From: a virus
DNA length: 48,501 nt
Strand: one strand, 5' to 3'
IMG/VR virus record: IMGVR_UViG_3300050821_001542
Span: 1 to 48,501 of that record
Position numbers and translations under genes: made by a program. Below are positions 17,010 to 42,235 of this stretch, in pieces. Positions within the stretch are counted from its first letter, which is position 1; each line of letters opens with the position of its first letter. The notes beneath the pieces are model-generated. The model worked only from the letters and a program-made list of their open reading frames with translations. It did not search any database and was not told the origin of the DNA.

Positions 17010-17459
17010 TCACACCTCGCGGAAGAACACCTGATTTGCGATGGTTGCCGTATATTCAACCGCCGCCTCATCCCATTTCTGCGGGAACGGGATGGCCTGC
17101 CCGCCCACGTCGATGGTGGCCGTCGTCTGGATGCCCCTGGGCGCGTAGTAGAGCGTAGCGCCGCCTGTCAGGTCGGGCAGGTTGCCGGAGGCCGCTTGTA
17201 CGGCGATATTGACCGCTGTCTGCCATGCGGCCCAATCAGCAGCGTCCTCCGGGTCGGGGCCAAGCCTGATCTCCGGGTCGGCTGGATAGGTCATCGAGGA
17301 GAACTGGAGACGCTTCAGGCACTCGTCGGCCACGGCTGAGTTGTCCCGCGCCGCCCGGTTGAGGATCACGTTGGCGACGCTGGCCATGCCCTGTTGCCCG
17401 CCGGCACGGTTCTCTCGCCAGATGGTGAGGATGAGCGTCGTCTGGTCGTAGAGGGTCAT
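17010..17459 (-). CDS. Endolysin, Hydrolase_2/SleB-type cell-wall hydrolase
   Basis: 149 residues. The N-terminal pattern LTIWRENRAGGQQGMASVANVILNRA matches the Hydrolase_2 family (E, then G, then VA.VILNR), with E16 at the expected catalytic Glu. An aromatic C-terminal part has GGATLYYAPRG and PFPQKWD. These enzymes cleave peptidoglycan glycan bonds as lytic transglycosylases. No signal peptide, so it needs a holin. The ATG 17459 overlaps the XhlA-like stop (ATGA). Confidence 0.8.
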   Translation of the reverse strand: MTLYDQTTLILTIWRENRAGGQQGMASVANVILNRAARDNSAVADECLKRLQFSSMTYPADPEIRLGPDPEDAADWAAWQTAVNIAVQAASGNLPDLTGGATLYYAPRGIQTTATIDVGGQAIPFPQKWDEAAVEYTATIANQVFFREV

Positions 17460-17722
17460 CTTCCGCCCACAGTCTTGTAGATTTGGAGCACTACCAGTAT
17501 GAGACCCAGAATCGTCCCGATACTGCCGAAGGCCCATGCCGCTCCTTTCAGCCATGTGACGACCTTCTCGATTGCGCCAACCCTCTTGCCGAGTTCCGCA
17601 TTCGCAGCCTGATTGTCTTTATGACGCTCGTCAGAGTTGGTCTCAACGCGGGTCATATTGTTGTTGAGGTTTATGATCTCGCGCTCTACCGCGGCGATCC
17701 GTCCGATGACGCTATCGGCCAT
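17456..17722 (-). CDS. XhlA-like lysis protein, 88 aa
   Basis: Residues ~5-45 are a charged coiled coil (GRIAAVEREIINLNNNMTRV) and a single membrane helix ends the protein (~60-82, GAAWAFGSIGTILGLILVVL). This order is that of XhlA/hemolysin-type proteins, which sit beside phage holins and endolysins and assist lysis. It is coupled to the endolysin by ATGA and to the gene upstream by overlap. Confidence 0.7.
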   Translation of the reverse strand: MADSVIGRIAAVEREIINLNNNMTRVETNSDERHKDNQAANAELGKRVGAIEKVVTWLKGAAWAFGSIGTILGLILVVLQIYKTVGGR

Positions 17723-17921: not shown

Positions 17922-20045
17922 TCACTGCAACGTCACGCTGCCTGAAATCGAGATGCTTCCACTGATCCCCACATTGGGTGGCGTGGGAGTGTAGATCGTC
18001 CAACTCCCATTTGATACAGGTGAATCTGCATATCCCGGACACCCATGCACATAGGCGTAGAGCGTCACCGCCGTGGTCACCGTGTACGTCGTCTGATTCG
18101 TGACCGGGGTAGGGTTGGTGTCGAAGTAGATATAGCTCCCGCAGCCGGAGGTCGCGGTGGATGCAGTCACAACGGTGGGATTGGTCACGGCCCCAGCAGC
18201 AGGAGAGAACGTCGGTTGGGCCGCAGTCGGTGTTCCCGCAAACTCTAATCCTCCCATGCTCGGAGGCGAGTGCCATGCATTCCCAGCTTGATCCGTCGTC
18301 TGCCCTGCAATCGTCACGCCTGCATACTTCGCGGGCGAGCTGGACAGGATGTTGAAGTCGAAGTTGTCCAACTGGCTTTCGGAGGTCAACACAGTAGGCG
18401 GCTGATTGACTAGCGTGGGGTTGGTGTAGAGCGAGTGGCTTCCTGTCCACGGATTCGAGGTCAGGTTGTAGGCGATGTTGTAGTCCTCAACTGTGGGGGT
18501 GAAAACGTCCCACATCGTCGCCGTGCCGCCGTTGGTGAATTGGAGAACGATGTTGTCTTTCGCGGTGATGGAGTAGCTGGAGCAGTTGATTGGCGGAACG
18601 GTGTTGTCCGATGAGTCTTGGCACACCATGTCCATCACGGTTCCGGTATAGCCCACAAGCGTGTTGTGCTCGAAGATCATCTGCGTATTCCCACCAGCCA
18701 GCATCCCGGCGGAGTTCTGCACTCCGGCAGCGCGGCAGAAGTCAGAGAGGTGCGTGTTGTAGTCGGACGGAGTGCCGGTGATCGGTTGCGACATGCGATA
18801 GCAGTTCGCCACTACCAGATTGTTGATGTACGTTTCAGAACTTTGCGGGCCGGACTTCATGTTGCCGCCCATGTTGCCGAAGAAGTACGAGTTCGTGATA
18901 GACAGCGGCGTGCCAATGCCATGCCCAAAATCCGGTCCGTCCTGCGTGTTGAGCGTGAAGTAACAGTAGTTGCAGCTAAACGGGAAGGGGCTTGTCGGCG
19001 TGCCGATTGCGTCTCCCTGCCCTCCGGAAACGTCGTCGTAGCAGCCCTGCGAGGCAATCGGAATTGCGGTTGTGAACGGCAGATGAGACTGAGCGCACCC
19101 GCTCCAGTCGATTCCTAGATAGGACGCCGTGAGTGACCCGCTGGAGACTTGCCCTGAACCGGGGTCGAAGTCCAGCCCGGTCTGGCCGTTCATGTAAACC
19201 CACACACGCGTCATCGTCCACGGCCCACCGATGGAGCCGATGAGTCCCTTCGATTGAAAGCCGTGGATCGCTACGTCTTGCAGAACGATATTGCCGTTCG
19301 TCGGTGAGCCGTAGCCTGCCTGAATTCCGTAGGCTGTGTTGTTTCTGTCCGTCCCTCCGTTACCGAAGAGGTCTAAGCATCGGATGGTGACATATTGCGA
19401 TCCCGTCAGGCCCAAGGCGTGATATTGCCCGGAGTAGTTGATTGCCAGCAGGTAAGCCGTCTTGCTTGAATCAGGCACTTGCCGGACATGATTCATGTAG
19501 GTAATCGTCGTTCCGCAGGAGGCGAAGTTCGAGCCTTCGAGGATCGTAGGATTCCCCAGCGTCCCGGAAGGCACGTCCGGCGGCTCCATTGACGCACCGA
19601 TGCCGCAGCCGAATTGCCCATCAGGGACTCCGCCGGGACAGTTGGGAGAATCGGCCCCAGAGATGCGCCCTGCTGTTGATTCCGTGGAGAAGTTCGAGAA
19701 GATGACCGTATCCCCACCGGAGATCACCCAGCCAATGTTGGCGTACTGCCACGGATCGGAATAGAGGTAACGCGGATCGGAGAAGGGACATGCTTGGCTC
19801 TGCCCGCCCGACGGATTGAATGGTGTAGTCCCTAGTCCTGTACAGTCTGCCGTCACGCCCACAGAAGAAGCAGAGTGACGTGGCCCACCGTTTACCGGAT
19901 CGACGGCCCAATTCGCCAGCCACAGTTGCAGGGCACTGGCAGGCGGCATCACTTGAGGATGGACGGCCTTCGGGAACAGAGGGAAGTATTCTGCGCACGC
20001 AGGCAGGGCGCAGAGTAGCAGGACGAGTGGGATAAGGCGCTTCAT
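17922..20045 (-). CDS. Exported right-handed beta-helix protein with chitobiase-type C-terminal domain, 707 aa
   Basis: Begins with a Sec signal MKRLIPLVLLLCALPACA; a lipobox reading (LPAC, Cys17) is also possible. Residues ~100-590 have irregular beta-helix repeats of the pectate-lyase/parallel beta-helix kind (for example NIVLQDVAIHGFQSKGLIG, TYINNLVVANCY, MIFEHNTLVGY) with many Cys. Residues ~615-695 match a CHB_HEX_C-type Ig-like domain (PTFSPAAGAVTNPTVVT...). Beta-helix proteins in phages are usually tailspikes or polysaccharide-degrading fibres. A signal peptide on such a protein is odd, since virions assemble in the cytoplasm. It may be a secreted depolymerase or surface adhesin. Confidence 0.7.
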   Translation of the reverse strand: MKRLIPLVLLLCALPACAEYFPLFPKAVHPQVMPPASALQLWLANWAVDPVNGGPRHSASSVGVTADCTGLGTTPFNPSGGQSQACPFSDPRYLYSDPWQYANIGWVISGGDTVIFSNFSTESTAGRISGADSPNCPGGVPDGQFGCGIGASMEPPDVPSGTLGNPTILEGSNFASCGTTITYMNHVRQVPDSSKTAYLLAINYSGQYHALGLTGSQYVTIRCLDLFGNGGTDRNNTAYGIQAGYGSPTNGNIVLQDVAIHGFQSKGLIGSIGGPWTMTRVWVYMNGQTGLDFDPGSGQVSSGSLTASYLGIDWSGCAQSHLPFTTAIPIASQGCYDDVSGGQGDAIGTPTSPFPFSCNYCYFTLNTQDGPDFGHGIGTPLSITNSYFFGNMGGNMKSGPQSSETYINNLVVANCYRMSQPITGTPSDYNTHLSDFCRAAGVQNSAGMLAGGNTQMIFEHNTLVGYTGTVMDMVCQDSSDNTVPPINCSSYSITAKDNIVLQFTNGGTATMWDVFTPTVEDYNIAYNLTSNPWTGSHSLYTNPTLVNQPPTVLTSESQLDNFDFNILSSSPAKYAGVTIAGQTTDQAGNAWHSPPSMGGLEFAGTPTAAQPTFSPAAGAVTNPTVVTASTATSGCGSYIYFDTNPTPVTNQTTYTVTTAVTLYAYVHGCPGYADSPVSNGSWTIYTPTPPNVGISGSISISGSVTLQ

Positions 20046-20239: not shown

Positions 20240-20727
20240 TTCGTCTCCTTGATCGCTACCGCCGTTCCGTTCAACTGAAACGTCCCGTCGCTCATTAGGG
20301 AGAAGCACACAGTAGGCAATGCCGTTACGCACCACTGCTTGCTTACAGTCACCGGCGGCGCAGGCAAAGCCGGAACCGTCACTGGAGGCTGCGCTACGCC
20401 GTTGATCGTCCAGTTGATCGTCTGCTGCACGGCAGTCTCGGCAATCTGGAACACCTTGGCATATCGCGGGCAGGAATCGGGTGGGCGTCCATTCGCTCCA
20501 TCGGGGTAGTCCACCACGTTGGTCTGCACGGTCACAGTGATTGGAGCGTAGGCTGGAGGACTCGCCAGCGGGCAGGAGGGCAGAACGACCTGCTGGTAAG
20601 TATCTCCAGCCGGAACGGTAACGACCGTCTGTAGCGTCTGTTGCGTGGAGGGGACGATGGTGACCCACGTCTGCGCATGGAGCAGCGGTGCGAAGAGAAG
20701 AAGGGCGGGAATCAGTTTACGGTACAT
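20236..20727 (-). CDS. Exported small protein of the fibre cluster, 163 aa
   Basis: Sec signal MYRKLIPALLLFAPLLHA, cut probably after LHA; the mature part is beta-rich with four cysteines and Pro/Val/Thr-rich stretches (PAGDTYQQVVLPSCPLASPP), ending GTFQLNGTAVAIKETK. It overlaps the tail-fibre gene by 16 bases. No family recognised. It shares the N-terminal export signal with three neighbouring fibre-type genes. Confidence 0.6.
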   Translation of the reverse strand: MYRKLIPALLLFAPLLHAQTWVTIVPSTQQTLQTVVTVPAGDTYQQVVLPSCPLASPPAYAPITVTVQTNVVDYPDGANGRPPDSCPRYAKVFQIAETAVQQTINWTINGVAQPPVTVPALPAPPVTVSKQWCVTALPTVCFSLMSDGTFQLNGTAVAIKETK

Positions 20728-23700
20728 GCGATGTTCTCCGTTCCCCCGCTGGCTGTGGTTCCTACGTGGGTAAAGGTCACCGTGTTGGCACTCACGGCAG
20801 AGATGTAGGCAATGGTGGTCGCCGCCGCCGCCGTGGAATTGGTCGGCGAGAAGACGCAGTTCGATGATGACGTGACGCCCGTGATGGTTGCCGAATCCGT
20901 GGTCGCCGTCGTGAAGGTGACCGTTCCGCGCAGGGAGAAGACATTAGAAGCGGTGACGCCGGAGTCGGTAACATCATCCCCGCCACCGGAAGTCACCCAT
21001 GATGCCAAGTGGCCGTTGTTCAGAGCGCCCGAAGCGGTGGCGACGAACGCCCCTCCGCCAGTCACGCTATAGCTCGTCCCCCACGCTGAACCTGTTGACT
21101 TTGGTACGCCAGCGCCGGGATAGACCATGCCTGAAGCTGGGCAGTTAGTGCCCGTGGACTGACACACATTGTTGCCACCCACCGTCAGCGCTGTGCCGAA
21201 GGTGCCGGTTGCGGCCTTGAGCGTCCCGCTGGTGTCGCCAGCAGAGCCATTGCCAACATCAACCTTGCCCGCTGAATCACGCGATAGCCCTGTGTCCGGT
21301 GTACTCGAACCGGGTCCGCCCGCACCCGAAGACCAGCCATACACATAGGTGCTGGGCTGGGAGATGTAAGCATTTGTGATCGCGGTCGTCCATGCTACGC
21401 CATGCTTGCCGAAGTAAATTACGCCATCATTGGCGGCGGTGATGTCATACGCCGCACCGCCCGCCGCCTGATTGTTGATGAGCATTCCTACGGTGGGGTA
21501 GTTGCCCTGCAACTGGAAGGAGTCTGTGCCGGAAAGCTGCTGATTCAGGACGACTCCGGTTCCCGGAACAGCCGAAAGTACAGGCGTGCCTCCAGTGCCG
21601 ACTGTGAATGATTCGCTATCCGTAATCGTACTGCTGGTTGTCACGCCATCGTCGAGATGCGAGTTCGCAGTGATGGTTGTCGCGCTTCCCGCCTTGGGGA
21701 TATACCCCGCCGTAAGGCCGGAGATGCCGGAACTGCCGCAGCCCACACACCCACCGTCAGCATGGATCACCTGCTGGACACGCAAACCCCCGTTGGTGAT
21801 ATGGAACTCATCGTTCTGATAGTCCTGAATCAGATCCGATCCGCCCGCGTCCTCCGTAATAATTCCGTAGGTATGCTGCCACGATCCGAGATGGTTTTGT
21901 ATCTCGAACAAAGATCCGTGCGGTGCCGATTCTTGATAGATGTCGTCGTTGAAAACTCCTGGCGCAGAAGTACTGCCGGAGTTCGCGTCGATCAGGTTGG
22001 GCGGATCGACTCCAGTGCGTGCTCCGGTGCTGGGGTTGTAGTAAAGTCCCAGCCCGTTGTTGTTGAACATATTGAGAAGGGAACTCGTAGACGCGAATCC
22101 CTGTCCGCCAGCTCCCAAGACCCACGCGCTGCATCCCTGCACGCTGGGCGTGTCGCAGTTCTGGTAGTTGAACTTTATGTTGTGAATCGTCTTGTCGAGA
22201 TGCGGATTCAGCAGCGTCATGCTGCCCGTATAGGTGATGCCGCTCGGCGCAACGACTGTGCTCACCAGGCACTGCTCATAGGTATTGCAGGTCGAGGTGT
22301 TGTTGTACCAGATGCGCGCAGCCTGAAAGAGGTGAAACGCCGCGTTCGAGGTTCCGTCTGTGGTCTCCGGCTCCAAGCCTGTCTGCGGGATCGGAAACGC
22401 ATCGGTGTTGCCGAACGCTTCGGTCGTGTAAGGCAGGTTAGTTCCGTCCACGGAAGGCAGGCCGATGTAGGCGGTGTGCTGCCCGTTCAGACTCAGGTTA
22501 GTGTCGAACCCGATGATGTAGCAGTGTCCCTTCGAGACGTAGACGTTGCCAACGATAGGGAAGACCAAGGGCAGATGGATCGTCTGTGTTGGTGAGCTTC
22601 CTGTAGCCGATGTGGTTACAGATTCCTCTACGAAGCCTTGAGTGCCGTTGCCGACGACACAGACCGAATCTCCGCCGCCGGAAGTGAATGACCCCGACCC
22701 GCCGGAGAACGTAATCGTCTCTGCGACGGGCGTACCGAAGCTGGTGTTCGTGTTGACCGTCGTGCTGGTGGAATAGCCGTAGACCGAGGTGGTCGGAAGC
22801 GTGGCCCCTGTGGTCGAAAGCTGGTTGATCCACGTCACCGCGCCCACGGAGAATGCCGTGCTCGCGCCGTTGAATTCGCCTGTGGTCGCCGTATTTCCGG
22901 TGATCCACTCGCCCGGTCCAGGAAAGCACTTCTGGCCCGCAATGTTGAAGCCGCCGCAACTGATGCCGCTGAAGGTCAGCGTGTCGGGGCTGCTGGTATG
23001 CGTCGAGAGTGTCAGTGTCGGGATCGGCCCTTCCCCGCCATACTGATATTCATGCTGTCCGCACTGATCGCTGGCCCACATGCAGTCGCCGGACATGGCG
23101 AAATATTCGTCATGGTTCAGACAGTCGCCCACACCCGAGCAAGTGAAGTACCCAGACAGTGCGGCCTTTCCGCCGGCCGTCGCATAATTCGTCGCCCAGA
23201 ATTGCAGCGTGTCGTATTTGCCTTCGACAAAGTAGTTGTTGGAGGTCTGCCCGCCTGCCTTGCCCGAACTCTGACCTAGAGAGAAATACCCAGAGAGCGA
23301 TGGATTCCCGTTGGCCCACGTCGCGTCATTGAAGGCCGCAATGTTTCCGAATCCTCCTCCGCCGAAGTAGCCCGTCGATCCGGGGGTATAGTTTAGATTA
23401 CTGGCGCGGTTTCCACTGGTAGCACTATAGGGAATTGCCGTCGTATTGCCGATGGGAGGTGGAGATGCGAAGGTCAGGTAGCTTGCGATAGGAGAATAAG
23501 CGCCACCATCCTGCGATAGGTTCGCAATCGCCGAAGCATCGGTATTGATGGATGCCTTTCCTGACGTAGGGGACGGTAGCCCTCCGCTGGTCGCAGGAAG
23601 GGTGACCTGTGTTCCCGTGCCGGTGAATGTACCGCTCTTGGCGGTGAAATTTCCGCTCCCGTCCGTGGTGACGCTCGAATCTCCGCCAACCGTCGTAGTG

Positions 23701-24356
23701 CTGCCGGCGTTCGGGTAGTACCCCATGCTGTATTGCGTGGCAGGGTTGACCGTGCCGCTGCCGGGTGGCGTCAAGTACGTCCCGGCGTTGCTGAGGAACT
23801 CAGAGCCGTTTCCGGTGTTGATGGGAAGAACGTGCGAGGAATCCGTGCTCACGTGAATGATGGGCGTGGTCGTCGGATTGACCACGTTGCCCTGAAAGCC
23901 TCCGTCGGTTGCCACTGACACCGCACTCACCCCGCCGGGGGAGGTGCCGTTCTTGCCCAACTCCTGTGCGATCTCGGTCAGCTTATCCAGCCCGTTCTCA
24001 ATCGACTTCTGCGGCGTAGGCATGTTGTCGGTGAACACCGTGGTCTGCGTGAGCGGAGTGGTACGCGAGACGACTAGCGTCTGCGTGTTGGGGCACGCGG
24101 AGTTTAGCGTGACGCTGCCCCCGTTGTCGTAGTTGTTATTGACCGGCTTGACGGCGTAGGCGCTCGATGGCAGGACGACGCTGTTCTGGGTCACCGTGAT
24201 CGCATTGGCCGCGCTGACAGAGAACGTGAAAGGATACGGGCCTACGCTGCCCGTGCAAGTGAAGGTCACGCTCGTGGCTTGGCTGACGACCGTGGCATGG
24301 GCAGAGGCCGCGAGTACGAGGGTGGCGAGTGCAGCGATCTTCGAGAAGAGACGCAT
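20712..24356 (-). CDS. Giant tail-fibre protein with T7 gp17-like N-domain behind a signal peptide, 1214 aa
   Basis: The ATG at 24356 is placed nine bases after AGG; an ATG two codons upstream (24362) is the alternative. Residues 1-21 are a Sec signal (MRLFSKIAALATLVLAASAHA). Next, to ~residue 140, comes a domain patterned like the N-terminal virion anchor of T7 tail fibre gp17: FTFSVSAANAITVTQN, LVVSRTTPLTQTTVF, then the helix IENGLDKLTEIAQELG. The rest is Gly/Ser/Thr-rich beta-repeat fibre with TGTFGTALTVGG-type repeats near the end. The gp17-like part would attach to the tail; the signal peptide ahead of it is unexpected. Confidence 0.75.
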   Translation of the reverse strand: MRLFSKIAALATLVLAASAHATVVSQATSVTFTCTGSVGPYPFTFSVSAANAITVTQNSVVLPSSAYAVKPVNNNYDNGGSVTLNSACPNTQTLVVSRTTPLTQTTVFTDNMPTPQKSIENGLDKLTEIAQELGKNGTSPGGVSAVSVATDGGFQGNVVNPTTTPIIHVSTDSSHVLPINTGNGSEFLSNAGTYLTPPGSGTVNPATQYSMGYYPNAGSTTTVGGDSSVTTDGSGNFTAKSGTFTGTGTQVTLPATSGGLPSPTSGKASINTDASAIANLSQDGGAYSPIASYLTFASPPPIGNTTAIPYSATSGNRASNLNYTPGSTGYFGGGGFGNIAAFNDATWANGNPSLSGYFSLGQSSGKAGGQTSNNYFVEGKYDTLQFWATNYATAGGKAALSGYFTCSGVGDCLNHDEYFAMSGDCMWASDQCGQHEYQYGGEGPIPTLTLSTHTSSPDTLTFSGISCGGFNIAGQKCFPGPGEWITGNTATTGEFNGASTAFSVGAVTWINQLSTTGATLPTTSVYGYSTSTTVNTNTSFGTPVAETITFSGGSGSFTSGGGDSVCVVGNGTQGFVEESVTTSATGSSPTQTIHLPLVFPIVGNVYVSKGHCYIIGFDTNLSLNGQHTAYIGLPSVDGTNLPYTTEAFGNTDAFPIPQTGLEPETTDGTSNAAFHLFQAARIWYNNTSTCNTYEQCLVSTVVAPSGITYTGSMTLLNPHLDKTIHNIKFNYQNCDTPSVQGCSAWVLGAGGQGFASTSSLLNMFNNNGLGLYYNPSTGARTGVDPPNLIDANSGSTSAPGVFNDDIYQESAPHGSLFEIQNHLGSWQHTYGIITEDAGGSDLIQDYQNDEFHITNGGLRVQQVIHADGGCVGCGSSGISGLTAGYIPKAGSATTITANSHLDDGVTTSSTITDSESFTVGTGGTPVLSAVPGTGVVLNQQLSGTDSFQLQGNYPTVGMLINNQAAGGAAYDITAANDGVIYFGKHGVAWTTAITNAYISQPSTYVYGWSSGAGGPGSSTPDTGLSRDSAGKVDVGNGSAGDTSGTLKAATGTFGTALTVGGNNVCQSTGTNCPASGMVYPGAGVPKSTGSAWGTSYSVTGGGAFVATASGALNNGHLASWVTSGGGDDVTDSGVTASNVFSLRGTVTFTTATTDSATITGVTSSSNCVFSPTNSTAAAATTIAYISAVSANTVTFTHVGTTASGGTENIACTVN

Positions 24357-24388
24357 TGGCATTTACCTGTACTCGTAGAGGATGACCG

Positions 24389-25636
24389 CTAGTTTGCCCC
24401 AGAGAGCGTGCATACGCTTCCAGCAAGAAAGTCAGGGCCGGTCGCGGGGTACAACTTGATGCTTGTAATTGCGGCTGTGTTTCTCCATTGGCCATGAAAA
24501 CTCTGCGTCAAAATCTCCCCGCCGGTGTTGATGTTGCTGCGTTCTCCCTGCGAGACCCACGTTTTGAAAAATGAGGTGTTGGCATAGTCGTCGAATACTG
24601 CATCAAGTTGAGCGAAAGAATTCGCCTGATCGCTTGCGGCGGTCGCGTTGCCGATGTCTCCATTGGCTCCAGCGGTAATGGAGCCGTTGGACGATGAGTA
24701 GCTTGAGCCTGCCCCGTACCCGCCGAACACATACCCATAGTCGTAGTTGTTCCCTGTATCGCCGTTGATCTGGAAGAAGATGTCGTCGTAAGCCTGGGCA
24801 ACGTTAGTTCTCAGATGGCACGAGAGCTTGAGGTGTGGGAATGGCGTCGCTGGGATGCTGGTGAAGGTGATGTTGGTCGTCGTACTGCCTGACACGGTTA
24901 TCTGCGCGATCTGATTGCCACAGATCGAACCCAGCGTGCAGGTCTGCCCGTTGACCGTAGTGGAGGCATTCGATGCTGCCGCTCCAATTGTGTTCGTGCT
25001 AACCGTAACCGGCGAGGAACCGTTGAATGTGGCTCCGCTCGCCGCCCCAGAGCCACTATTGTTGAACGTCACCGCCTGCCCGGTAGAACCGCCGCTGCCA
25101 CTTCCCGATGCCACGCTCGGACTCGACTTGAATATCAGGTCGAGGGTGATCTGCGCCGAGTTGACGCTGTTGCCGGTGATCGCCACAGTCAATGCGCTGC
25201 GCACCACAGGGCGTCCGGTCGTGGCGCTCGTGATCGAGGTAAGCTGCGCTGCGCTCGCGCTGCCGTTTGATGTCAGCAGCCCCAAGTCCAGAGCGAAGCC
25301 GTCCGCGTCGGTGATCGTGACCGTGTAGTTCGCCGTTGGCTCCGTAGTGCCCGGCGTTTGCCCAACCTGATAGAGCACGTATCCGGTCAAGTTGTAGGCG
25401 TTCAGGATGCCGCCCACGGGGTAGGAGCCGGTCAACGGGATGCTCGTCGAGGGGTAGGTGTGCGCCGAGGCGTCCGCCGTGCAGGTCAGGGTGATGATGA
25501 CCGTCTCAGCGTCAGGCACGCGGCTGTTGGCGTTCTGCGTGCTGGTCACGTTGCTGACCTTGCAGGTGCCAGCAGCCCACACGGACGCAGGCAGCATCAG
25601 CATCCCAGCTAGGAGTGCGAGAATCTTTCGTTTCAT
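24389..25636 (-). CDS. Exported fibre-type protein, 415 aa
   Basis: ATG 25636 has GAGGAAA at the right distance and starts a clear Sec signal MKRKILALLAGMLMLPASVWA. The mature protein is beta-rich and Ser/Thr/Gly/Asn-rich, with a low-complexity hinge near the middle (SGSGSGGSTGQAVTFNNSGS) and a C-terminal globular part. That part (DDIFFQINGDTGNNYDYGYV, WVSQGERSNINTG, IKLYPATGPDFLAGS) resembles carbohydrate-binding receptor domains of phage fibres. It lies just upstream of the gp17-like gene in the same unit. Confidence 0.65.
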   Translation of the reverse strand: MKRKILALLAGMLMLPASVWAAGTCKVSNVTSTQNANSRVPDAETVIITLTCTADASAHTYPSTSIPLTGSYPVGGILNAYNLTGYVLYQVGQTPGTTEPTANYTVTITDADGFALDLGLLTSNGSASAAQLTSITSATTGRPVVRSALTVAITGNSVNSAQITLDLIFKSSPSVASGSGSGGSTGQAVTFNNSGSGAASGATFNGSSPVTVSTNTIGAAASNASTTVNGQTCTLGSICGNQIAQITVSGSTTTNITFTSIPATPFPHLKLSCHLRTNVAQAYDDIFFQINGDTGNNYDYGYVFGGYGAGSSYSSSNGSITAGANGDIGNATAASDQANSFAQLDAVFDDYANTSFFKTWVSQGERSNINTGGEILTQSFHGQWRNTAAITSIKLYPATGPDFLAGSVCTLSGAN

Positions 25637-25650
25637 AAGTTTCCTCACGG

Positions 25651-26907
25651 TCAGAATTTTACCCCCCACTCCGAGAACTGTTCGAGATTCTTTTTCAGCC
25701 CGTCCACGGAGCCTATACAGCACTCCACCCCAATGCCCTTGATCTGCTCGGCGATCTCCTGCGCCTCGGCAAAGCAGGCGTCCAGCGACTCTCCGGTGGT
25801 GACCACGGAAGCGAAGCCGGGCGTGTCTGACTTCTGCGGCATGATCCAGAGTTCGTCTCCGAACATGGTAGCGTAGCGGAACTTGATCTGCTCGCGGTAT
25901 TTATCCGGGAACTCGACCAGCAGCGGGTTATTGATCGACCACTTCGACTCGACGATGAACTGCGCGCCGTACTTGCCAGAGAACTTTGGCTCGACCAGTT
26001 TTCCGTCCGCTCCCTGCCGCATGATCTCGGCGAGGTTCGAGATCATGTTCAGTTGCAGCTCGAATGGAGGCGACCCTCCCCGGCAGCATGGGTCGCACAG
26101 GTACGTCGTATCGCCACCCATGCGGGACTCCAGCGAGAGCATCTGGCGGTACTCATACTTTTCGAGCGTCGGAGCCAGAGCCTCGTAGATGCTCACCAGG
26201 TCCTCCGGCATCTTTGCCCAGGGCTTCGCCACGCAGATGTAGCCCTCGTCCTTCTTCTCCGTGCCTAACAGGGCCATTGCCGGAAACTTTCCGTCCACCG
26301 AGTACGTATCAATGGCAATGTCGAGCGTTTCGGGCAGGTCGTCCTCGACGATGAACTCCATCTGCTCCGCCGCCGGCCCCAGCTCCGCGGCAAACTTGTC
26401 CAGACGGTTCTTCGAGCCTTCGTAGCCCTCGACGGGAAATGTCTCGGTGTCGTTACGGGTCAGGCTGATCTTCACCCACACCTTGTCCTCGCGGCCCTTG
26501 AGGTACTTCCGCAAGGCTGTCATGCCCTGCACCACTTCGTAGGGAGCCTGCGGGATGCCCAGCGTCTTGAAGTATGCCTTGGCCTCCGTGCGGGCCGTCT
26601 CCAGTTCGTCTCCGTTGCGCGCGCCCCACACGCGCTTGCCTTTGTCGGCGAGATATTCCTGCAAGGGGCCGTTGTGCAGGTCGGGGAACACGAACAGGTC
26701 AACCTCGTCGATAATGCTCCAGATGTCTTTCACCCGCTCGTACTCAGGGAAGCCCTCGCCGATCTCCGTCTTGGCGCTGGAGGGGAAGTCCGCCACCCAC
26801 GGGGAGGTGTAATAGACCTTGCCGAAGCTGCGCGAAAGCGTGCGTGCCAGTTCTGCGAACAGGCCGTTGTCCACGATGCACACGCTCTTGCTCTTGGGGT
26901 CGTCCAC
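25651..26907 (-). CDS. ATP-grasp enzyme (GARS/carboxylate-amine-ligase-like)
   Basis: GTG 26907 is preferred (GAGGA upstream, TAGTG overlap with the mini-gene before it); 418 residues. The N-terminal domain (~8-105) is a Rossmann-like pre-ATP-grasp fold (SVCIVDNGLFAELARTLSRS, DLFVFPDLHNGPLQEYL). The ATP-grasp part follows: TEAKAYFKTLGIPQAPYEVV, the ATP-lysine strand VWVKI (~K147), FIVEDDLPETLDIAIDTYSV, and CCRGGSPPFELQLNMISNLAEI near the active-site end. ATP-grasp enzymes join a carboxylate to an amine or thiol via acyl phosphate. In this operon the substrate might be a virion protein or cell-wall precursor; unknown. Confidence 0.7.
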   Translation of the reverse strand: MDDPKSKSVCIVDNGLFAELARTLSRSFGKVYYTSPWVADFPSSAKTEIGEGFPEYERVKDIWSIIDEVDLFVFPDLHNGPLQEYLADKGKRVWGARNGDELETARTEAKAYFKTLGIPQAPYEVVQGMTALRKYLKGREDKVWVKISLTRNDTETFPVEGYEGSKNRLDKFAAELGPAAEQMEFIVEDDLPETLDIAIDTYSVDGKFPAMALLGTEKKDEGYICVAKPWAKMPEDLVSIYEALAPTLEKYEYRQMLSLESRMGGDTTYLCDPCCRGGSPPFELQLNMISNLAEIMRQGADGKLVEPKFSGKYGAQFIVESKWSINNPLLVEFPDKYREQIKFRYATMFGDELWIMPQKSDTPGFASVVTTGESLDACFAEAQEIAEQIKGIGVECCIGSVDGLKKNLEQFSEWGVKF

Positions 26908-27008
26908 TATTCCTCGATTCCCAACTCGGCGCAGATGCACGCCCAGATGTGCGTCCAAGAGTCGCATCCGCCAACGTCGATCCTGTCGTATACGTTCACC
27001 GTCCGCAT
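26907..27008 (-). CDS. 33-residue mini-gene
   Basis: ATG 27008 has GGAGATGAC directly upstream, one base after the preceding stop, and its TAG overlaps the ATP-grasp GTG (TAGTG). The peptide MRTVNVYDRIDVGGCDSWTH continues with Trp/Cys residues (IWACICAELGIEE). The spacing is that of a genuine coupled gene. Confidence 0.5.
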   Translation of the reverse strand: MRTVNVYDRIDVGGCDSWTHIWACICAELGIEE

Positions 27009-27009: not shown

Positions 27010-30000
27010 TCATCTCCTGATCGAAAACTTCTTTGTCGCGCTGCGCTTGGTCATGCCGGGGAGAGTCTGCGGCTTAGTCGATGCTCCGCCTGATGCGCCT
27101 TCGTGGATTGTAGGCGACCCCATAGAATCCGCCGCGAGTTCCAGTAGATCGCGGTACGAGTATTCGTGGTCGGGATCGGTGAGCGCCTGCGTTACCGTCT
27201 CGACGGCGCTGACTCCGGTGATCGGTACTACGCGCCCAGCGGCGTACTCGCCCTGCTTCTCGGCCTTCTTCGGGCCGCTGTCGCTGCGCTTGTAGATTGG
27301 CCTTCCGGTCTCGTCCTTATTGAACGCCAGCCCCATCCCAGCACCCAGTAGCGGAGCCGCCTTGCTGACGACGAACTCCGCCGTGCCTGCAATCGGCGAG
27401 TCGCTCGCGACTCGCTTTGCCAGCGTCATCGCGTCCTTCGGAGCGCCTGCAAAGAACCAGTCCGCGTACATCTCTTTGCCGTGCTCGTCAGTGCCGAGGT
27501 AGACGCGATCCATGTTCTTCGTGTCCGAGGGATCATACTTGCCGCCGATGGCGATGCTCATGGCGGCGGTCATGGCGATGCCCGTGGCAAACGACTTTGC
27601 CCAGAACATCCGCGCAGCAGCTCCAGCAGGGCCGCCCTCGAATGCGTACTTCCCGGTGAGCACATTGGAGAATGTCCAATCCGGGGCTAGCAAGAAGAGG
27701 CGGCTCACGTCGCGCACCGTTTTTCCGGTTCCAAGCACGTCCCAGTTCAGGCCACCGTAGGCCGAGTTGACTTCCTTGGCGATGGAACGCCGCGTGGCGA
27801 AGATTTCCTCGTTCGTGGCCTCTGGGTGCTTCGAGCGCCACGCTGCTTCTTTCAGTGAGGCGTCCATCACCTTGAACTTGCGCTGCACCACGTCGAAGGT
27901 GAACTCCGTGGTGGCCTTGAACGCCGCGTCTACCTGCTTGACCACAGGCGCGTTGGCGAGCTTGTCGAAGCCCGTAGGGATGCTCGACTTGCTCAGGCCC
28001 TCATATGCCTCGTAGGGCGTCTGCGTCTTGGCTGTGGTGAGGCCGTCTGCTGCCCACTCGCGCTCCGCCGAAGCGAACTCCGGGGACTTCAGGTCGGACG
28101 CCATCGCCTTCGTGAACTCGGTCAGCCCCATGTTGTTGAACGCGGTGATGCCGAGCGCCTTGACGTGGAACAGCGACAGTCCCAGTTCCAGCCCTTTGAC
28201 GTAGCCCTGCGACTTCAGCAGCGGTGCCAGCTTCGTGCCCGCCAAGCCCTGCTCGAACAGCGGGCGCATGGCGTCGGCAACTTCCTTCGGCACGTAGAAG
28301 GACTGCTCGCGGGCCTGCAACGCGCGCTGGCCGGGTGCCATCTCCACCCAGCCGTCCGGGTGGCCGTCCTGCGTGCCGTATTTGCCGAGGTCGGTGTTCT
28401 TCAGTTCGGTCGCCAGCAGCTTCGTCGCCGCCACGGTCGCGTGGCGGTCTCCGTACACCGATAGCGCATCGACGGCGTTCACCGTGCGGGCGTCGAGCCT
28501 GCCGGTCTTGAGCGCGTCGAGGATCGTAGGGTAGGCACGCTCTTTGGCGAACGGCGTGCTCTTGGCCATGATCGCGCTGCCCGTGCCCTTCGGCTGCTCG
28601 CCTTCGAGAATCCGCGTGAGGATGTGGGGCGAGTAGTGCGACGGGTCAATGCTCGACTCCATGAAGCCGAGTTGCCTGCCTTCGTCGAGCGCGGCGGTAT
28701 AGTAGGCGGTCAACCGCTGGTCGGCCTCCAGCAGTTCAGGCGAGGGATTTATGGCCCGCTCGATGGACGGGATCAGCCCCTTCAGGCGTTCCGAGTCGCC
28801 GTTGCGAATCTGCTCCAGATCGGCGGCCAACTTGTCGGGCGTGCCTTTGTAGTCCCGCAGGATGCTCAGGGCCTCCTGGTCGCGGTAGTCGGGGATCAGC
28901 CGCTTGATCTCGTCCCGCAGTTGCGTGGTCGCCGCGATGCGGGTGTCCCGCTGGCCCGCAAACAGCGTCCGCAGCACCTCCCGGCCGTAGCCCTTGCTGG
29001 CGAGTCCAGCCTTGATCTTATTCAGCCCCTCGCGGGCGGCTGCGAGGCGCTGGGCGTTCTGCGGCGCTACGTTGGCGATGGTCGGGTCGCCCTCCGCCAG
29101 AGAACGCGCCTGCGCCCTCTGGCGCGCAGCCTGATAGTCCTCCGCGTGGAGTTCGGCCTGCTTGTCGCCGTCCTGCTCCTGTAGCCACAGTTCGTGCGTG
29201 TCAGGCTCGTTGTCCTTCATCCACTTGCGGGCTTCCATGCGGGAGAGGAACTTGCCGTCCGGGGTGACGAAGCCCCGGCCTGACTTCATGGCGGAGCGGT
29301 CGTACAGGTCGTTGATCGAGAGGGGCTTTTCCTCGCCTTCCTCGGATGTTCCACGTGGAACATCGCCCGATTCGATGGCCTGAGACTTCAGTTCCCACGC
29401 CTTATCAATCACTTCCTGCTCGTGGATAGCCGGATTGTCCAGCACGTCGTCAGCCTTCGTGGGGTCGGCCTCAAGCTGCTCCAGCGACACGGGTTTCTTC
29501 GCCAGCACGCGCTCGGCCACGTCCGCGTGGCTCTCGTCCTCGTCACCTTCGATGAAGCCCGCTCCGAAGCCGTGCTGCACCTCAATCGCGGGCCTGAGTC
29601 CCGGCGGGGCGTCAGGCTTTACCGGGGGCTGCGCGGCGAGCCGTGTGGCCGTCTCCTCCGGCGTGGTGCCGTCCTTGGCGTACACGTCCATCGTGGCCTG
29701 CTGTGCCTCTCCCTTGCGCAGTGGCAGGCCGTGGGCGATGAGGTTCAGTGGGATGATGAGCGCGGCGTTGCCTGCAAAGTCTTGGGCGCTGGGCAGCTTG
29801 CCGTCGAGCAGGTCGGCAGCGGTCGTCAGGGCCGTCGCCTGGTACAGTCCCTTGACCGCTGTGGCAGCAGGGCCAGCCAACTTGCCCACGGGCAGCCCGC
29901 CAGCCAACTCCGTCGCAGCGCCCGTCACCGCGCCCTTGGTTGCAGCCCACGTCACTGCCCCGGCGCGCCGCAGCAGGTCAGGAAAGTCCTTCACGTCCCC

Positions 30001-30564
30001 GTTCTTGATGCCCTGTACCAGCACTTCACGCAAAGCAGCCGGCAGAGCAAACCCGCCCGCCGCCGCACCGAGTCCCGCACCGGTGATGTTGCCCGCGATC
30101 GGCACCTCCGACCCGGCGGCTCCGCCCGCCGCACCCCCCGCCAGTCCGCCGGCAATGTAGAACGGGAGGTCAGCCACCATCTCCGTCACGCCCGACACGA
30201 ACTTGTCGAGCAGGCCGGGGTTGCGAATCTCCTCCGGCATAGCCTCGCGGTGATGCAGGCCGAAGATGGACTCTTCCCACCCCACCTTCACGTCGTTCTC
30301 GATGGTTGGGTCAAGATCCATCGAATCGTAGTCTCCTCCGATGGAGCGGAGTTGCGTGTCGATCTCGTCCCGGTTCTGGTACGCCGTACCGGGGTCGATC
30401 TTCAGCATGTTGCCGTGGACGCCTGCCTGCCACGCATCCTGTCCGGTGTTGGGAGGGAGTGTTCCACGTGGAACACTGGCCGGGGTCACCGTCTGCCAGT
30501 CGTCCGGCTGGACAGTCTCCCAATCGGTCGGGTCGGCTACTGCGGAGGCTTGCCGGGGTGCCAT
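27010..30564 (-). CDS. Large internal virion / DNA-ejection protein, 1184 aa
   Basis: ATG 30564 has GGAGGGAAGAC upstream. Residues ~120-260 carry Gly/Ala-rich membrane-seeking segments (FYIAGGLAGGAAGGAAGSEV, GAGLGAAAGGFALPAALREV). The middle is highly charged and helical. The C-terminal third contains MFWAKSFATGIAMTAAMSIA and a long soluble tail. Size, position after the tail-tube and internal-core genes, and hydrophobic patches fit ejectosome proteins such as T7 gp15/gp16. No transglycosylase motif seen. Two 20-bp palindromes are embedded in the gene (29345-29364, 30458-30477), both encoding VPRGT. Confidence 0.7.
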   Translation of the reverse strand: MAPRQASAVADPTDWETVQPDDWQTVTPASVPRGTLPPNTGQDAWQAGVHGNMLKIDPGTAYQNRDEIDTQLRSIGGDYDSMDLDPTIENDVKVGWEESIFGLHHREAMPEEIRNPGLLDKFVSGVTEMVADLPFYIAGGLAGGAAGGAAGSEVPIAGNITGAGLGAAAGGFALPAALREVLVQGIKNGDVKDFPDLLRRAGAVTWAATKGAVTGAATELAGGLPVGKLAGPAATAVKGLYQATALTTAADLLDGKLPSAQDFAGNAALIIPLNLIAHGLPLRKGEAQQATMDVYAKDGTTPEETATRLAAQPPVKPDAPPGLRPAIEVQHGFGAGFIEGDEDESHADVAERVLAKKPVSLEQLEADPTKADDVLDNPAIHEQEVIDKAWELKSQAIESGDVPRGTSEEGEEKPLSINDLYDRSAMKSGRGFVTPDGKFLSRMEARKWMKDNEPDTHELWLQEQDGDKQAELHAEDYQAARQRAQARSLAEGDPTIANVAPQNAQRLAAAREGLNKIKAGLASKGYGREVLRTLFAGQRDTRIAATTQLRDEIKRLIPDYRDQEALSILRDYKGTPDKLAADLEQIRNGDSERLKGLIPSIERAINPSPELLEADQRLTAYYTAALDEGRQLGFMESSIDPSHYSPHILTRILEGEQPKGTGSAIMAKSTPFAKERAYPTILDALKTGRLDARTVNAVDALSVYGDRHATVAATKLLATELKNTDLGKYGTQDGHPDGWVEMAPGQRALQAREQSFYVPKEVADAMRPLFEQGLAGTKLAPLLKSQGYVKGLELGLSLFHVKALGITAFNNMGLTEFTKAMASDLKSPEFASAEREWAADGLTTAKTQTPYEAYEGLSKSSIPTGFDKLANAPVVKQVDAAFKATTEFTFDVVQRKFKVMDASLKEAAWRSKHPEATNEEIFATRRSIAKEVNSAYGGLNWDVLGTGKTVRDVSRLFLLAPDWTFSNVLTGKYAFEGGPAGAAARMFWAKSFATGIAMTAAMSIAIGGKYDPSDTKNMDRVYLGTDEHGKEMYADWFFAGAPKDAMTLAKRVASDSPIAGTAEFVVSKAAPLLGAGMGLAFNKDETGRPIYKRSDSGPKKAEKQGEYAAGRVVPITGVSAVETVTQALTDPDHEYSYRDLLELAADSMGSPTIHEGASGGASTKPQTLPGMTKRSATKKFSIRR
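29345..29364. promoter_or_regulatory. parS-like 20-bp perfect palindrome, copy 1
   Basis: GATGTTCCACGTGGAACATC is a perfect palindrome. Its 16-bp core TGTTCCACGTGGAACA (29347-29362) differs from the bacterial parS consensus TGTTTCACGTGAAACA by one symmetric base pair, a change known in natural parS sites of some bacteria. It encodes DVPRGT in the host gene. Confidence 0.6.
30458..30477. promoter_or_regulatory. parS-like 20-bp perfect palindrome, copy 2
   Basis: AGTGTTCCACGTGGAACACT, again a perfect 20-bp palindrome with the identical 16-bp core at 30460-30475, 1113 bases from copy 1. Codon phase is the same (SVPRGT). Flanking bases differ from copy 1 yet keep the symmetry. Confidence 0.6.
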
Positions 30565-32355: not shown

Positions 32356-32841
32356 TTAGCTCCCCTGCCAGATGCCAGTTGGCCCCGCTGCGGTTGGGAT
32401 AGGATTGCTGGTGGTTCTGCTATACGCAGAGGCGGCGGTGGAGATTCCACTCAGGAATGATCCGATGCCCGCCATCGTCCCGCCGAACGCCGCGATCTTT
32501 CCGTAGTAGCGTTGCAGTGCCGCCTCTTCCGTGCCCGCCTCTTCGATCTGCTCGCCCTGTTGCGCCCCGCGCGCTGCGGTCGCAGCCATAACAAGGAGCG
32601 CCGACCCGGATGCGATATCAACTCCTGCCCCGGCGTAGGCAGTTGCCTGCTTCCCGATGAGCGCCGTGAATTGCTGCTGGTTTGCCTGCACCTTGTTCGC
32701 AGTGTTGAGCAGCGTAATATCCGCGTTGTAGTCGTCGGCGGACTTCTCCTGCTGGCCCTGCTCGTACTTGCCGAAGCCGCCGATGGCAGACGACAACACG
32801 CCCAGCCCGAAGGTTGCGCCCGCCGTGGTCTGAGGCGTCAT
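32356..32841 (-). CDS. Internal virion protein, T7 gp14-like in position, 161 aa
   Basis: ATG 32841 overlaps the gp13-like stop (ATGA), with GAGGTGGCC upstream. An N-terminal Gly/Ala hydrophobic segment (GATFGLGVLSSAIGGFG) leads to a helical Gln/Ala-rich body (VQANQQQFTALIGKQATAY) and a second hydrophobic stretch (GGTMAGIGSFLSGI). This is the usual build of podovirus internal virion protein B, which inserts in the outer membrane during ejection. Confidence 0.7.
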   Translation of the reverse strand: MTPQTTAGATFGLGVLSSAIGGFGKYEQGQQEKSADDYNADITLLNTANKVQANQQQFTALIGKQATAYAGAGVDIASGSALLVMAATAARGAQQGEQIEEAGTEEAALQRYYGKIAAFGGTMAGIGSFLSGISTAASAYSRTTSNPIPTAAGPTGIWQGS

Positions 32842-33254
32842 GGGGCCACCTCGAAGATGCGGCAGTGCAGGTCGCACGTCTCGCCCTTTGGCCCGAACTT
32901 TCGCAGGGTACCTTCGTAGGCGAATCCGAGCAGCTCGAAGAACTTGCGCGGCACGCCCGTGACGCACGTAGCCTGCACGCGCTCGAATCCGTAGTCCGAA
33001 GCCATGACCGGAAGGCACTCGCGCAGGTGACGCAGGCAGGTCAGAGGCTTCGCGCGGAAGAAAGGCGTGGGCAGCATCCACGCCTCTCCCCTACTCCACT
33101 CCATGTTGACGATCCCGCCCGCGAACACAGGCTCTCCATCCTCCAAGACACACAGGGCCGCGCTTCCGGGGGAGAAGTAGGCGCGTATGTCCACGCCCAC
33201 CGGTAGCGGAAGGCAGTAGAGATGCGCTCTGGTCAACTGCACAATTTCGATCAT
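32838..33254 (-). CDS. T7 gp13-like protein with acetyltransferase-type fold, 138 aa
   Basis: The fold pattern is GNAT-like: AALCVLEDGEPVFAGGIVNM as central strands, FRAKPLTCLRHLREC helix, and FERVQATCVTGVPRKFFELLGF near the acyl-CoA end. T7 gp13 (internal virion protein A) and its relatives share this fold and help virion assembly without known catalysis. Its position just before the gp14-like gene is as in T7. Coupled by ATGA to it. Confidence 0.7.
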   Translation of the reverse strand: MIEIVQLTRAHLYCLPLPVGVDIRAYFSPGSAALCVLEDGEPVFAGGIVNMEWSRGEAWMLPTPFFRAKPLTCLRHLRECLPVMASDYGFERVQATCVTGVPRKFFELLGFAYEGTLRKFGPKGETCDLHCRIFEVAP

Positions 33255-33255: not shown

Positions 33256-36200
33256 CTAATCCTGATTGGCTGACAATCTAAAGACTATACCGCGCAGCGT
33301 AAATGGCAACGGATCATCCTGTGTGACGAGGAAGGTGCTCTGCTCGCTCCAGTCGCAGTCCGTGTCGCGCACGATGGAATCGAAGGTGGACATCTGCGGC
33401 TGCTTGCCCATCGTCCCCGGCCCGTAGGTGATGGGGTACATGTGGTCGCGGTCTTCGCCGAAGCATCCGCCCATCGCCTGATAGAGCGAGAGCGAGATGC
33501 GGTTGATCTTTTGCGGCATACTCCGCGTGGTCGATCCCGGCTGCGCGAGCACAGGATTCGTCGGCTGGAGCGTGTACTGGTACGGCAGGCCGATGGTGAT
33601 GAGGTTTGCGTAGTAGGGGAACGTGATCGTATCGCTCGTGACCACCGTGGGCTGCAAGATGAGCGCGCCGTCGCCCACAGCCACAACCGAGTTCCCCAGC
33701 AGGTAGCTCATGCCGGAGATCTGACCGACTACCTGCATCGCCGTCCCTCCGCCGGCGTACGCAGGCATGGCGGTGGTGTCGGAGGTGTTGAGCGAGTAGC
33801 GGTTCGCGTCAATGACGGTAATCGTCCATGCCTCTGTGGGATCGGTGTTCACCCCCGTCATGCCCTGCACGTTCTGGATCGAGACCGTCATTCCAGTCGA
33901 GAAGCCGTGACCCGGATCAGTGACCACGGCAGGTGCGGCGTTGGTGATGCCAGTGATCGCGCTTGGCCCCACACCCTGAAACTGCTGCCCGCAGTACACG
34001 AAGAAGGCGTTGGACAACTGGCCGAAGAGTTCCTGCGGCATGAAGTACTCGACGAACCGCTGCGAGACCCCGTTGATGGTGCGCTTGACCACCACGGCGA
34101 GCTGGTCTTCCTGCCCTGAGCCGCTGATGACCGCCGCCGATTCTATGGTGCCGCCATTGGGCAGCATGTTCACGCGGAACCATGCGTACACCTGGTCTTG
34201 CGTGTTGAAGACCAGACCGATCAACTGCCCATCGTTGCGCACCGCCCAGAAGATGGGGTACGGCTCCATCTGGAACGCCGTCTGTGCGATGCCGGACTGC
34301 GCTTCGCTCGGCCCCAGCGTGATGGTGCGGTTCAACCGCGTGAGGTCGTTGTTCTCCCATGTGTTGCTGACAAAGTTGAACACGAGGAACGTGACGATGC
34401 GTTGCGACCGTGAGACGAAAATCGCCGACCCGTTCACCAGTTGCGGCTGCAAGAAGCTCACGCCCATCGAGGACTGGATCGCGGCGTTCACGTTGGTCTG
34501 GCTCAGGGACGATCCGTTCGATCCCTCCATCACCCACACGCCGCCGGAGGTTCCGATCAGCAGGGCATTGGGCGTACCGATCATGTTGAGCAGTTGGTTG
34601 ACCTGATTCGATACCAGCCGGAACTGGATCGCGTAGTCGTCCGCGTTGGGATCGCAGATGAAGTCCGGGTAGTCGTCCTCAACCGATCCGTTCATCTGCG
34701 TGGGGTTGTTGTCGCTTCCGCCGACGCAGAGCCGCTGCTGGTAGAGCGTGCCGCACGCCGGGTAGTCGCCCGGAGCCGCGAACAGTGGCGCGACCTGCAC
34801 CACGAACCCGCCGCTGACGTAGGCAAGAAACCCTGTTGAGTCCACAGGGTCTCCTGTGTCGGGATCGTTGAGCGTGATCGAGAACGTCCCATCTCCGTTG
34901 ACCGTGGGGTTCGAGACGATGAACTCTCCCTGATTGAGTTCGACCATGCCGCCGACGAGGTTGATGTAGACCCGGCTTCCATCGGGGAACACCGTGCCCG
35001 TTGCAGCCATCGTGACCACGCACGGGTTGGCCTTGGTGATCGCCGTGATCGACTGGCCGAGCGCGGAGTAGCCGGTAGAGACCACGCCCAGCGTACCCCG
35101 GTACGCAGGCTCTCCCGGCTGCTGTCCGGGGAAAGAGGTGCTGTAGGCCCACTGGTTCGCGCTCTGGCGCTCGATCACGGCCGGCGGGTAGTTGGGATGG
35201 AAGACCCACAGCACGTCCGCGCTCTGCGTCGATGTGTCGAGTTGGAACAGGTCGCCTTCGAGGTAGGGGGTGGCGAGTTCAATGGGCGGCTGCGCGCTGG
35301 CGTTGTAGGCCGCCCAATATGGGGCGTTGAATGCTCCGGTGTAGAGAAACGGGAACTCATCTCCCACGTTCGGCGCTGCGCACTGCACGATGGCCGAGGA
35401 TGTCGAGATCGAGAACCGGAAGTCTCCCGGTGGTACGGTAGGTGCCACAATCCACGGACTCCCCAGATAGATCGAATCAGGAGTAACCGTCCACGCCGAC
35501 AGGTCGACGAAGTTGTTTCCCGGAGAGTTCAGTGACACCAGTGCTCGGATCGCCGCCTGGATCGCCGGGGCCGCGTTGTGCGCTGCCGTGGCGTTCGCCA
35601 GGGCGATGTTGATGCCCTGATTCGGAGAACTGCCCGTGGCGGTAACGCTGAGGGCGTCCGAGCCGTTCGTAGTGAAGGTGATCGGCACCGTGTTCGCGTT
35701 GGTCGTCCCGTAGGGCGAGGCGATGGTCAGGATGCCGTGGCTGGGATCGGGAACCCAATGCACGAATGGCGTAGGCACGCTCTGGTAGTACGAGCATGGG
35801 ACATACGGCCCCACGAGGGCAAGGTTGCCCGCGGCGTAGGTGGTCGCCGGATTGTAGTTCACGCCCGACGGGGGAACTTGCAGCGCCAGACCCAGCGACC
35901 ACGACCCCTGAGTGGCTCCCTCCCAGATGCGGACAATGCCCGCGCAGAACTCAAGAATCGCTCCCTGTGCGGTCGAGAACTGGAACGGCACGAGGCGGCT
36001 CTTCCCGCTGGTCGCCGTCTGCATCTGCTCGCTGGCAACCGTCTGTTCGAGGTTGACGGTGTACTGGCCGACTCCTCCGGGCATCCCGCTCGACACCTCG
36101 GTAACGATGTCGTAGTCCACAGTCATGGTGAACGGCTCACCGATAAAGACGCGCGAGGTGTCGGTTGCGACCGCCTCCGCAAACCCGAAGCTCGAATCGT

Positions 36201-36900
36201 TCAGGATGGCGGGCGTCGGAGACCCTCCCCACTGGTCGGTCGGCCCGCCATAGGACTCAGTGACCAGCGACGTGGTGAAGGGCGTGTTGGGCGTCTTGGC
36301 CGTGCCGAACTGCGCGCCCAGATACCAGAGCGCGACCTGCGAGAGAACGCTGGTAGTGGTGAACTGCGAGATCAGGACTGAGCTGACGGTGATGCCCAGA
36401 TTGATTGCGGTCAGTGGGATGGCCCACCCGAAGTTCGAGAACACCAGATCGCTCAGGGCCGTGGTGACCGGCTCTAAGTGTGTGCGGAACTGGTTGCCTA
36501 CAAACTGCCAGTCATTGATGCCCGTGGACGTGCCCGCCGTCTTGGTGACAGTGAAGTGTGTGGTGATCGGCGTCATCGCGGGGATGTATCCGGTGATGGT
36601 GGTGCCCGGAGTCACTCCCGGCCCGGATATGACCTGCCCGATGCGGATGGTGCCGTAGATGACCGAGGTGATGGTCAGCGTCGTGCCGGAGATCGAGCCG
36701 ATGAACATGGCCCCGCCAAGCCCAGCGGCCCCGGCAAAGTACGTCCCCGGCATCTTCTTCGCGCCGCCTTCGACCAGAGGGACGGCGTTCTCTAACTGGA
36801 GGCAAGCGGAGTTGTACTTTTGCACATCGTCGCGGAACTCGACCAGCTCCGAGACCTCACCCGTGTTGAACGAGTTTCGTACTGGGTAGGTCTTCGGCAT
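33256..36900 (-). CDS. Tail tube / nozzle protein (T7 gp12-like), 1214 aa
   Basis: ATG 36900 forms TAATG with the gp11-like stop. The start [20 protein letters not shown] and [20 protein letters not shown] is the standard N-terminus of podovirus nozzle proteins (T7 gp12 / P22 gp10 type). The long beta-rich body includes [18 protein letters not shown] and [15 protein letters not shown], typical of beta-propeller nozzles. Residues ~63-122 hold an extra module ([30 protein letters not shown]) also seen in the Bbp16-like protein. It would form the distal tail tube. Confidence 0.8.
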
Positions 36901-41992: not shown

Positions 41993-42235
41993 TCATTCTC
42001 CTTTTTCTGTCATTCCGTAGAACTGGTAAACCTGGTCGAACGCTCCGGCCATCCGCGCGATCGCAATGGCGAGGTTGTGCTCTCCCAACCTTACATCTTC
42101 CTGCGGGTTCAGTATTTCCCCAAAGTGTCCGAGAGTCAATATATCTCCGAGTACGCGGCGACCTTCCATCGTGCCAAAGACGTTCTTGTACCGCTGCTGC
42201 ATCTCCTTGGCGGGGTCACGCGGTTGTTCCGGCAT
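41993..42235 (-). CDS. Bbp19-like small virion protein, 80 aa
   Basis: The core RYKNVFGTMEGRRVLGDILT, followed by a Gly-rich turn and a helical end EHNLAIAIARMAGAFDQVY, matches the Bbp19 family found beside portal genes in BPP-1-like phages. The portal gene's 3' end overlaps its start by 20 bases. Role in the virion unknown. Confidence 0.7.
   Translation of the reverse strand: MPEQPRDPAKEMQQRYKNVFGTMEGRRVLGDILTLGHFGEILNPQEDVRLGEHNLAIAIARMAGAFDQVYQFYGMTEKGE

Follow-up and report, generated by a model that had tools for sequence, protein, structure and literature searches.

A gene lying among the virion genes of an uncultivated virus is predicted to encode a full-length ATP-grasp enzyme that has the fold of GAR synthetase (PurD) and includes a pre-ATP-grasp domain. 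We propose that the protein is a virus-specific, apparently active carboxylate-amine ligase that acts late, and that in many relatives the amine is supplied by a SpeD-like enzyme; in our judgement this reading stands an even chance of being right. The DNA analysed, here called the window, comprises 48,501 bases and is the IMG/VR record IMGVR_UViG_3300050821_001542; its capsid protein is related, at ~29 to 33% identity, to capsid proteins of podoviruses, BPP-1 among them. The ligase gene and three codons referred to below are:

25651-26907, minus strand: predicted PurD-fold ATP-grasp ligase, 418 aa, GTG start
26470-26472, minus strand: codon of the invariant K146, which aligns with the ATP lysine K145 in PurD of E. 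coli
26128-26130, minus strand: codon of the invariant E260, putatively the first metal ligand
26092-26094, minus strand: codon of the invariant D272, which aligns with the metal residue E286 in PurD of E. coli

Fold and catalytic residues of the window ligase

The frame from 25651 to 26907 is open on the minus strand, and its GTG start at 26907 is preceded by GAGGAATA. The longest open reading frame at the gene, 25651-26967, has an ATG start, but this form is not supported because the starts of the relatives coincide with the residue of the GTG at 26907. In comparisons with three relatives dN was 0.175 to 0.29 and dS, which is near saturation here, was ~1.8 to 2.0 or saturated (one pair: dN 0.175 vs dS ~1.8). 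With dN well below dS in all three comparisons, the gene is under purifying selection, and a chance open reading frame is ruled out by this result together with the 61 aligned sequences described below.

As a single sequence the window ligase gave no significant match in Pfam, PHROGs or the PDB, and the family libraries searched give the protein no name. A first alignment (A1) used 9 of 13 close IMG/VR loci, setting aside L005, whose protein is that of L004, L010, which nearly duplicates L009, the frameshifted L011 and the truncated L012. A profile-guided scan yielded 97 relatives, of which 80 were kept and the short L072 then fell out; dereplication at 85% and removal of X-bearing rows left 60 of the 79, which together with the window sequence form the 61 sequences of alignment A2. 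When the A2 profile was compared with the PDB, GAR synthetases took the top six places (best 1.5e-7). The structure model calculated from A2 (pLDDT 93.9, pTM 0.91) likewise had GAR synthetases as its best matches, namely 3lp8 (Z 32.0) and 2yw2 (Z 31.9), over 374 residues with an rmsd of ~3, followed by PurT, PurK and biotin carboxylase with Z 25 to 23. Since the aligned range of the model starts at residue 5 or 7, the match includes the pre-ATP-grasp domain, and all parts of the superfamily fold (pre-ATP-grasp, ATP-grasp and C-terminal) are present in the model. The original prediction, made from the sequence of the window, had described a pre-ATP-grasp and ATP-grasp layout and proposed a structural comparison with GAR synthetase among other enzymes; the layout was right and is narrowed by this comparison to the PurD fold.

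The residues R106, K146, E260, D272 and R276 are invariant in A2 (61/61), and so are E103, R151, E155, D200, E217, K219 and N291. In the alignment with E. coli PurD, K146 corresponds to K145, R106 to K105, D272 to E286 and R276 to R290, while E260 is without a PurD counterpart. In PurK, PurT and biotin carboxylase the two metal ligands usually lie 12 residues apart, and the same distance to D272 makes E260 the putative first metal ligand. An ATP-binding lysine and acidic metal ligands, as they characterize the ATP-grasp superfamily, are therefore found in the family, with roles assigned by the PurD alignment and, for E260, by spacing. These are the residues by which the original prediction was to be checked, and their retention suggests that the ligase is apparently catalytically intact.

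The ligase departs from PurD elsewhere. The motifs GGREHA, APGN and GPNTGGMG, which bar single substitutions are found in the seven PurD proteins compared, are not kept in A2, and the position of PurD N288 is mostly occupied by cysteine in the ligase family. The score against the PurD family TIGR00877 was 14.4 bits vs a curated cut-off of 288. Whole-record searches for AdoMet_dc, SAICAR synthetase and spermidine synthase covered 49 loci on long contigs plus the window, and SAICAR synthetase, the sole purine family searched besides PurD, was found in none of these 50 virus records, some of which may be fragments. To this extent the earlier view that the gene has no company from the purine pathway holds. 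That the protein is a divergent GAR synthetase supplying purines to the phage would fit with PurD being its nearest fold and profile match, and true PurD does occur in phage records of the collection, some of them being bacterial contigs. Due to the loss of the phosphoribosylamine motifs, the TIGR00877 score far under its cut-off and the lack of SAICAR synthetase in the 50 records, we rejected PurD proper, and we regard a divergent GAR synthetase as extremely unlikely.

Virion-gene setting and distribution of the family

The window ligase gene sits between the gene of a 1184-aa protein and two fibre-region genes, in a minus-strand array that includes:

20712-24362, minus strand: long fibre-like protein, 1216 aa, signal-peptide-like N terminus
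24389-25636, minus strand: fibre-region protein downstream of the ligase, signal-peptide-like N terminus, start at an internal Met
27010-30564, minus strand: probable ejection (internal virion) protein upstream of the ligase, 1184 aa, so named from place and size; weak PHROG match of unknown function
32356-33081, minus strand: internal virion protein (phrog_418)
38915-39967, minus strand: major capsid protein
42216-44084, minus strand: head-to-tail connector (portal)
44345-46060, minus strand: terminase large subunit

The same order, a gene for a protein of 1000-1500 aa followed by the ligase and then by fibre-region genes, is found in the window's clade. In other relatives the neighbours vary with the phage backbone and comprise terminase, portal, ejection or fibre genes. 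Among 20 neighbouring proteins scanned, 9 had no match at 0.001. The named neighbours include a terminase (L041, L065), a portal protein (L045, L052, L058, L060), a tail fibre (L048), a lytic internal virion or tail protein (L092), an endolysin-like protein (L084) and an ADP-ribosyltransferase or minor-head-like protein (L062). The placement among virion genes, as it had been described at the outset, is thus confirmed in the window and recurs in other phage backbones. A glycosyltransferase of the same operon, which the original prediction had named as a possible partner, did not appear: Pfam gave none at E ≤ 0.01 among 25 minus-strand open reading frames of the window, some of them possibly wrong frames. 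What stands of that interpretation is an ATP-grasp enzyme of GAR-synthetase layout in a virion-gene setting; the glycosyltransferase partner finds no support in the frames scanned, and the target it named (virion, fibre or cell wall) is a guess.

A cell-wall hydrolase is encoded in the window at 17010-17555. For phage amidoligases an envelope or superinfection role has been suggested (PMC10580990); the ligase would then make an amide by which the phage profits from an altered signal or an altered cell wall of its host. Weak matches to the L-amino acid ligase C-domain (PF18603) in 4 of the 61 members, the best with E 0.0069, might point in this direction. However, the neighbours are late structural genes, and no family of cell-wall synthesis turned up next to the window ligase, which makes such a role improbable in our view.

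Relatives of the ligase were found only on uncultivated virus contigs (80 loci examined) and on six short contigs from metagenome bins. The 80 kept relatives and the window form the set of 81 loci used below, in which near-copies such as L079/L080, L083/L084 and L036-L039 are included. A tblastn search with three diverse members against 50,697 phage records gave no match. Of two scans of the genome_contigs collection, the first returned no relative and the second the six short contigs. On L122 there are genes from the clusters next to which terminase and portal had been identified, on L123 there is the gene C9 described below, and L126 and L127 carry genes of the same viral clusters. Because several of these metagenome-bin contigs share genes of viral clusters, the ligase family looks viral.

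Some further features of the neighbourhoods were recorded. Three late fibre-region proteins on the minus strand of the window (that starting at 25636 and those at 20712-24362 and 17922-20045) open, as judged by eye, with Sec-like signal peptides, which are unusual for virion proteins. At 37683-38195 (minus strand), amid structural genes, there is a C2H2 zinc-finger match at the Pfam cut-off (25.2 bits). A late protein of 1230 aa at 33256-36948 (minus strand) has an E1_FCCH domain (1.2e-18) and recurs in the neighbourhood set, where 40 loci have it. C9 is a protein of ~124 aa with a conserved HExxE-like motif and without a match in Pfam or PHROGs; it occurs in 20 of the 81 loci and in most of them adjoins the ATP-grasp gene (e.g. 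L028:9621-9995). In L136 (1334-1708) it comes after a different ATP-grasp protein of the PurD superfamily that keeps the GPNTG loop.

A SpeD-like gene beside the ligase in relatives

The strongest partner signal for the ligase comes from its relatives, many of which carry a gene of ~120 codons directly upstream that belongs to the AdoMet decarboxylase family. The AdoMet_dc profile (PF02675) matched 13 of 14 SpeD-like members, the best with 7.5e-9. A SpeD-like gene lies close to the ligase in 20 of the 81 loci, upstream in 19 and downstream in one, and in 15 of these 20 it ends at most 14 nt from the start of the ATP-grasp domain; in L057 it is truncated. In the whole-record searches AdoMet_dc was over its cut-off in 5 of the 50 records. 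When SpeD was searched first, the ligase was found within 6 kb in 18 of 20 loci, of which 7 are on contigs already in the ATP-grasp set and 13 are new, 11 of the latter with the ligase. The two exceptions are L112, where the contig ends ~100 nt after SpeD, and L113, where SpeD stands between portal-like and capsid-like genes (by eye) with no ligase within 6 kb. Another SpeD subtype is more canonical in that it retains the catalytic His, and of its 6 loci 5 have the ligase next to it; L128 and L131 were already known, and 3 of the 4 new loci have the ligase. The exception, L133, has no ligase within 6 kb, and its His-keeping SpeD-like open reading frame follows others that by eye resemble a PAPS-reductase-like protein and a methyltransferase (L133:4421-6309). 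A third SpeD-first scan recovered only its own locus. The joining of two SpeD subtypes and several backbones to one ligase family suggests that the two work as a pair.

All 14 members of the main subtype retain the pyruvoyl Ser and the catalytic Cys, and H68 is replaced by Asp in all 14. The roles of S63, H68 and C83 in AdoMetDC (T. maritima numbering) are described in PMC10407285, according to which H68 is essential; due to its replacement, the decarboxylase activity of the main subtype stays putative. Ornithine or arginine is the substrate decarboxylated by published phage SpeD homologues, which are 117-122 aa long (PMC9992855). A classical spermidine pathway encoded by the phages was rejected, since spermidine synthase was absent from all 50 records.

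SpeD is absent from the window and from its clade, which comprises 18 tree rows. A hidden copy in the window was rejected, as a six-frame profile search gave none at E ≤ 1e-3 and AdoMet_dc had no match in the whole record; near the ligase of other loci without SpeD only short chance fragments were found. On a quick ligase tree the presence of SpeD needs 10 changes, at least 6 of which are forced by well supported branches, the SpeD-bearing class being inflated by 10 rows chosen through SpeD. The window's clade has specific changes in the ligase, e.g. E196D, Y199I and G201T, which are uninformative on SpeD because they set the clade apart from SpeD-bearing and SpeD-less relatives alike. Since SpeD is missing in this clade, inferences on the amine are not directly transferable to the window phage.

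Due to the linkage in the relatives, a small amine is at least as likely a substrate as a protein. If the substrate were a protein, the ligase would add an amino acid or a short peptide to a virion protein (ejection, portal or fibre), in line with the original prediction, and in the relatives the SpeD-like protein would be modified by it or act as a further modifier. The gene does stand beside ejection, portal and fibre genes, and ATP-grasp ligases of the R2K family in phages are predicted to modify proteins (PMC7824862, PMC4431377). We nevertheless consider protein modification unlikely, because no protein partner is constant, the neighbours changing with the backbone, because the nearest relatives by fold act on small molecules, and because the linkage with SpeD points to a small amine.

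Proposed reaction and comparison with known systems

ATP-grasp enzymes convert a carboxylate to an acyl phosphate, which is then attacked by a nucleophile; in PurD the nucleophile is an amine. From this chemistry we infer that the ligase would join a carboxylate and an amine. ATP would phosphorylate the carboxylate of an amino acid or a similar compound, and attack of the amine on the acyl phosphate would give an amide, in a substrate site rebuilt on the three-domain fold of GAR synthetase. Gene linkage suggests that in SpeD-bearing relatives the amine could be the product of decarboxylation by SpeD, most likely from the class of polyamine-like compounds such as putrescine or agmatine. For the window's clade a host-derived amine or a different one might be used. 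Going by gene order, the module would act late and its product would be of use to the virion or to the virus under assembly, e.g. by serving DNA in the head as a counter-ion or by forming an adduct with a virion protein.

Taken further, and more tentatively than carboxylate-amine ligation as such, these steps could form a late two-enzyme module spread across phage backbones. A SpeD-derived decarboxylase would make an amine and the PurD-fold ligase would cap it with an amino acid; the amino-acyl polyamine-like product would then enter the virion with the packaged DNA or be joined to a virion protein. In the window's clade the ligase would have been retained, with either a shift of its substrate or the use of a host amine. 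We consider this fuller scheme possible but somewhat doubtful. Three observations speak against the carboxylate-amine reading: SpeD is absent in the window's clade, it occurs without the ligase in L113 and L133, and H68 is changed. The proposal offers a testable biosynthetic module for a virus gene family that is unnamed in the libraries searched. If true, synthesis of an amine conjugate would explain a conserved enzyme amid structural genes, and would also show reuse of the PurD fold outside purine synthesis in viruses. Production of such a conjugate by the phage itself while it assembles would, if real, be an undescribed way to handle packaged DNA or to modify virions. For phage SpeD homologues an assay has already been published that would also apply to the amine half.

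Among known enzymes PurD is the closest, sharing with the window ligase the fold over the whole length, the ATP lysine, one acidic metal residue and the Arg following it. The window ligase differs by lacking GGREHA, APGN and GPNTGGMG, by being viral and by having no purine genes found with it; moreover, the E.N metal pair of PurD is D.C in the ligase, which has the additional E260. PurT, PurK and biotin carboxylase belong to the same superfamily (Z ~25 to 23) and have two acidic metal residues at the usual spacing of 12, as the ligase would have, but their Z is below that of PurD and they gave no significant match to the A2 profile. LUZ24-like phages also carry an ATP-grasp enzyme (291 aa in UFV-P2; PMC3890496). 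According to the portion of that article at hand, however, it is smaller, lies on the early strand and has an amidoligase and a GATase nearby, with no SpeD seen there. The phage SpeD homologues described in PMC9992855 and PMC10407285 are of the same family and size as the partner in our relatives and have the pyruvoyl Ser and the catalytic Cys. In contrast to them, the main subtype here has Asp for H68 and its gene is joined to an ATP-grasp gene, a term absent from the accessible text of both articles. The ATP-grasp superfamily and AdoMet decarboxylase are named separately among viral auxiliary genes in PMC13332234, and within the open-licence literature searched we found no report of a PurD-like ATP-grasp and SpeD pair in phages. 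On a plasmid of Pantoea agglomerans (L120:780-3245) a PurD paralogue has a further ATP-grasp gene, an MFS transporter and an amidase as neighbours, and possibly represents another reuse of PurD outside purine synthesis.
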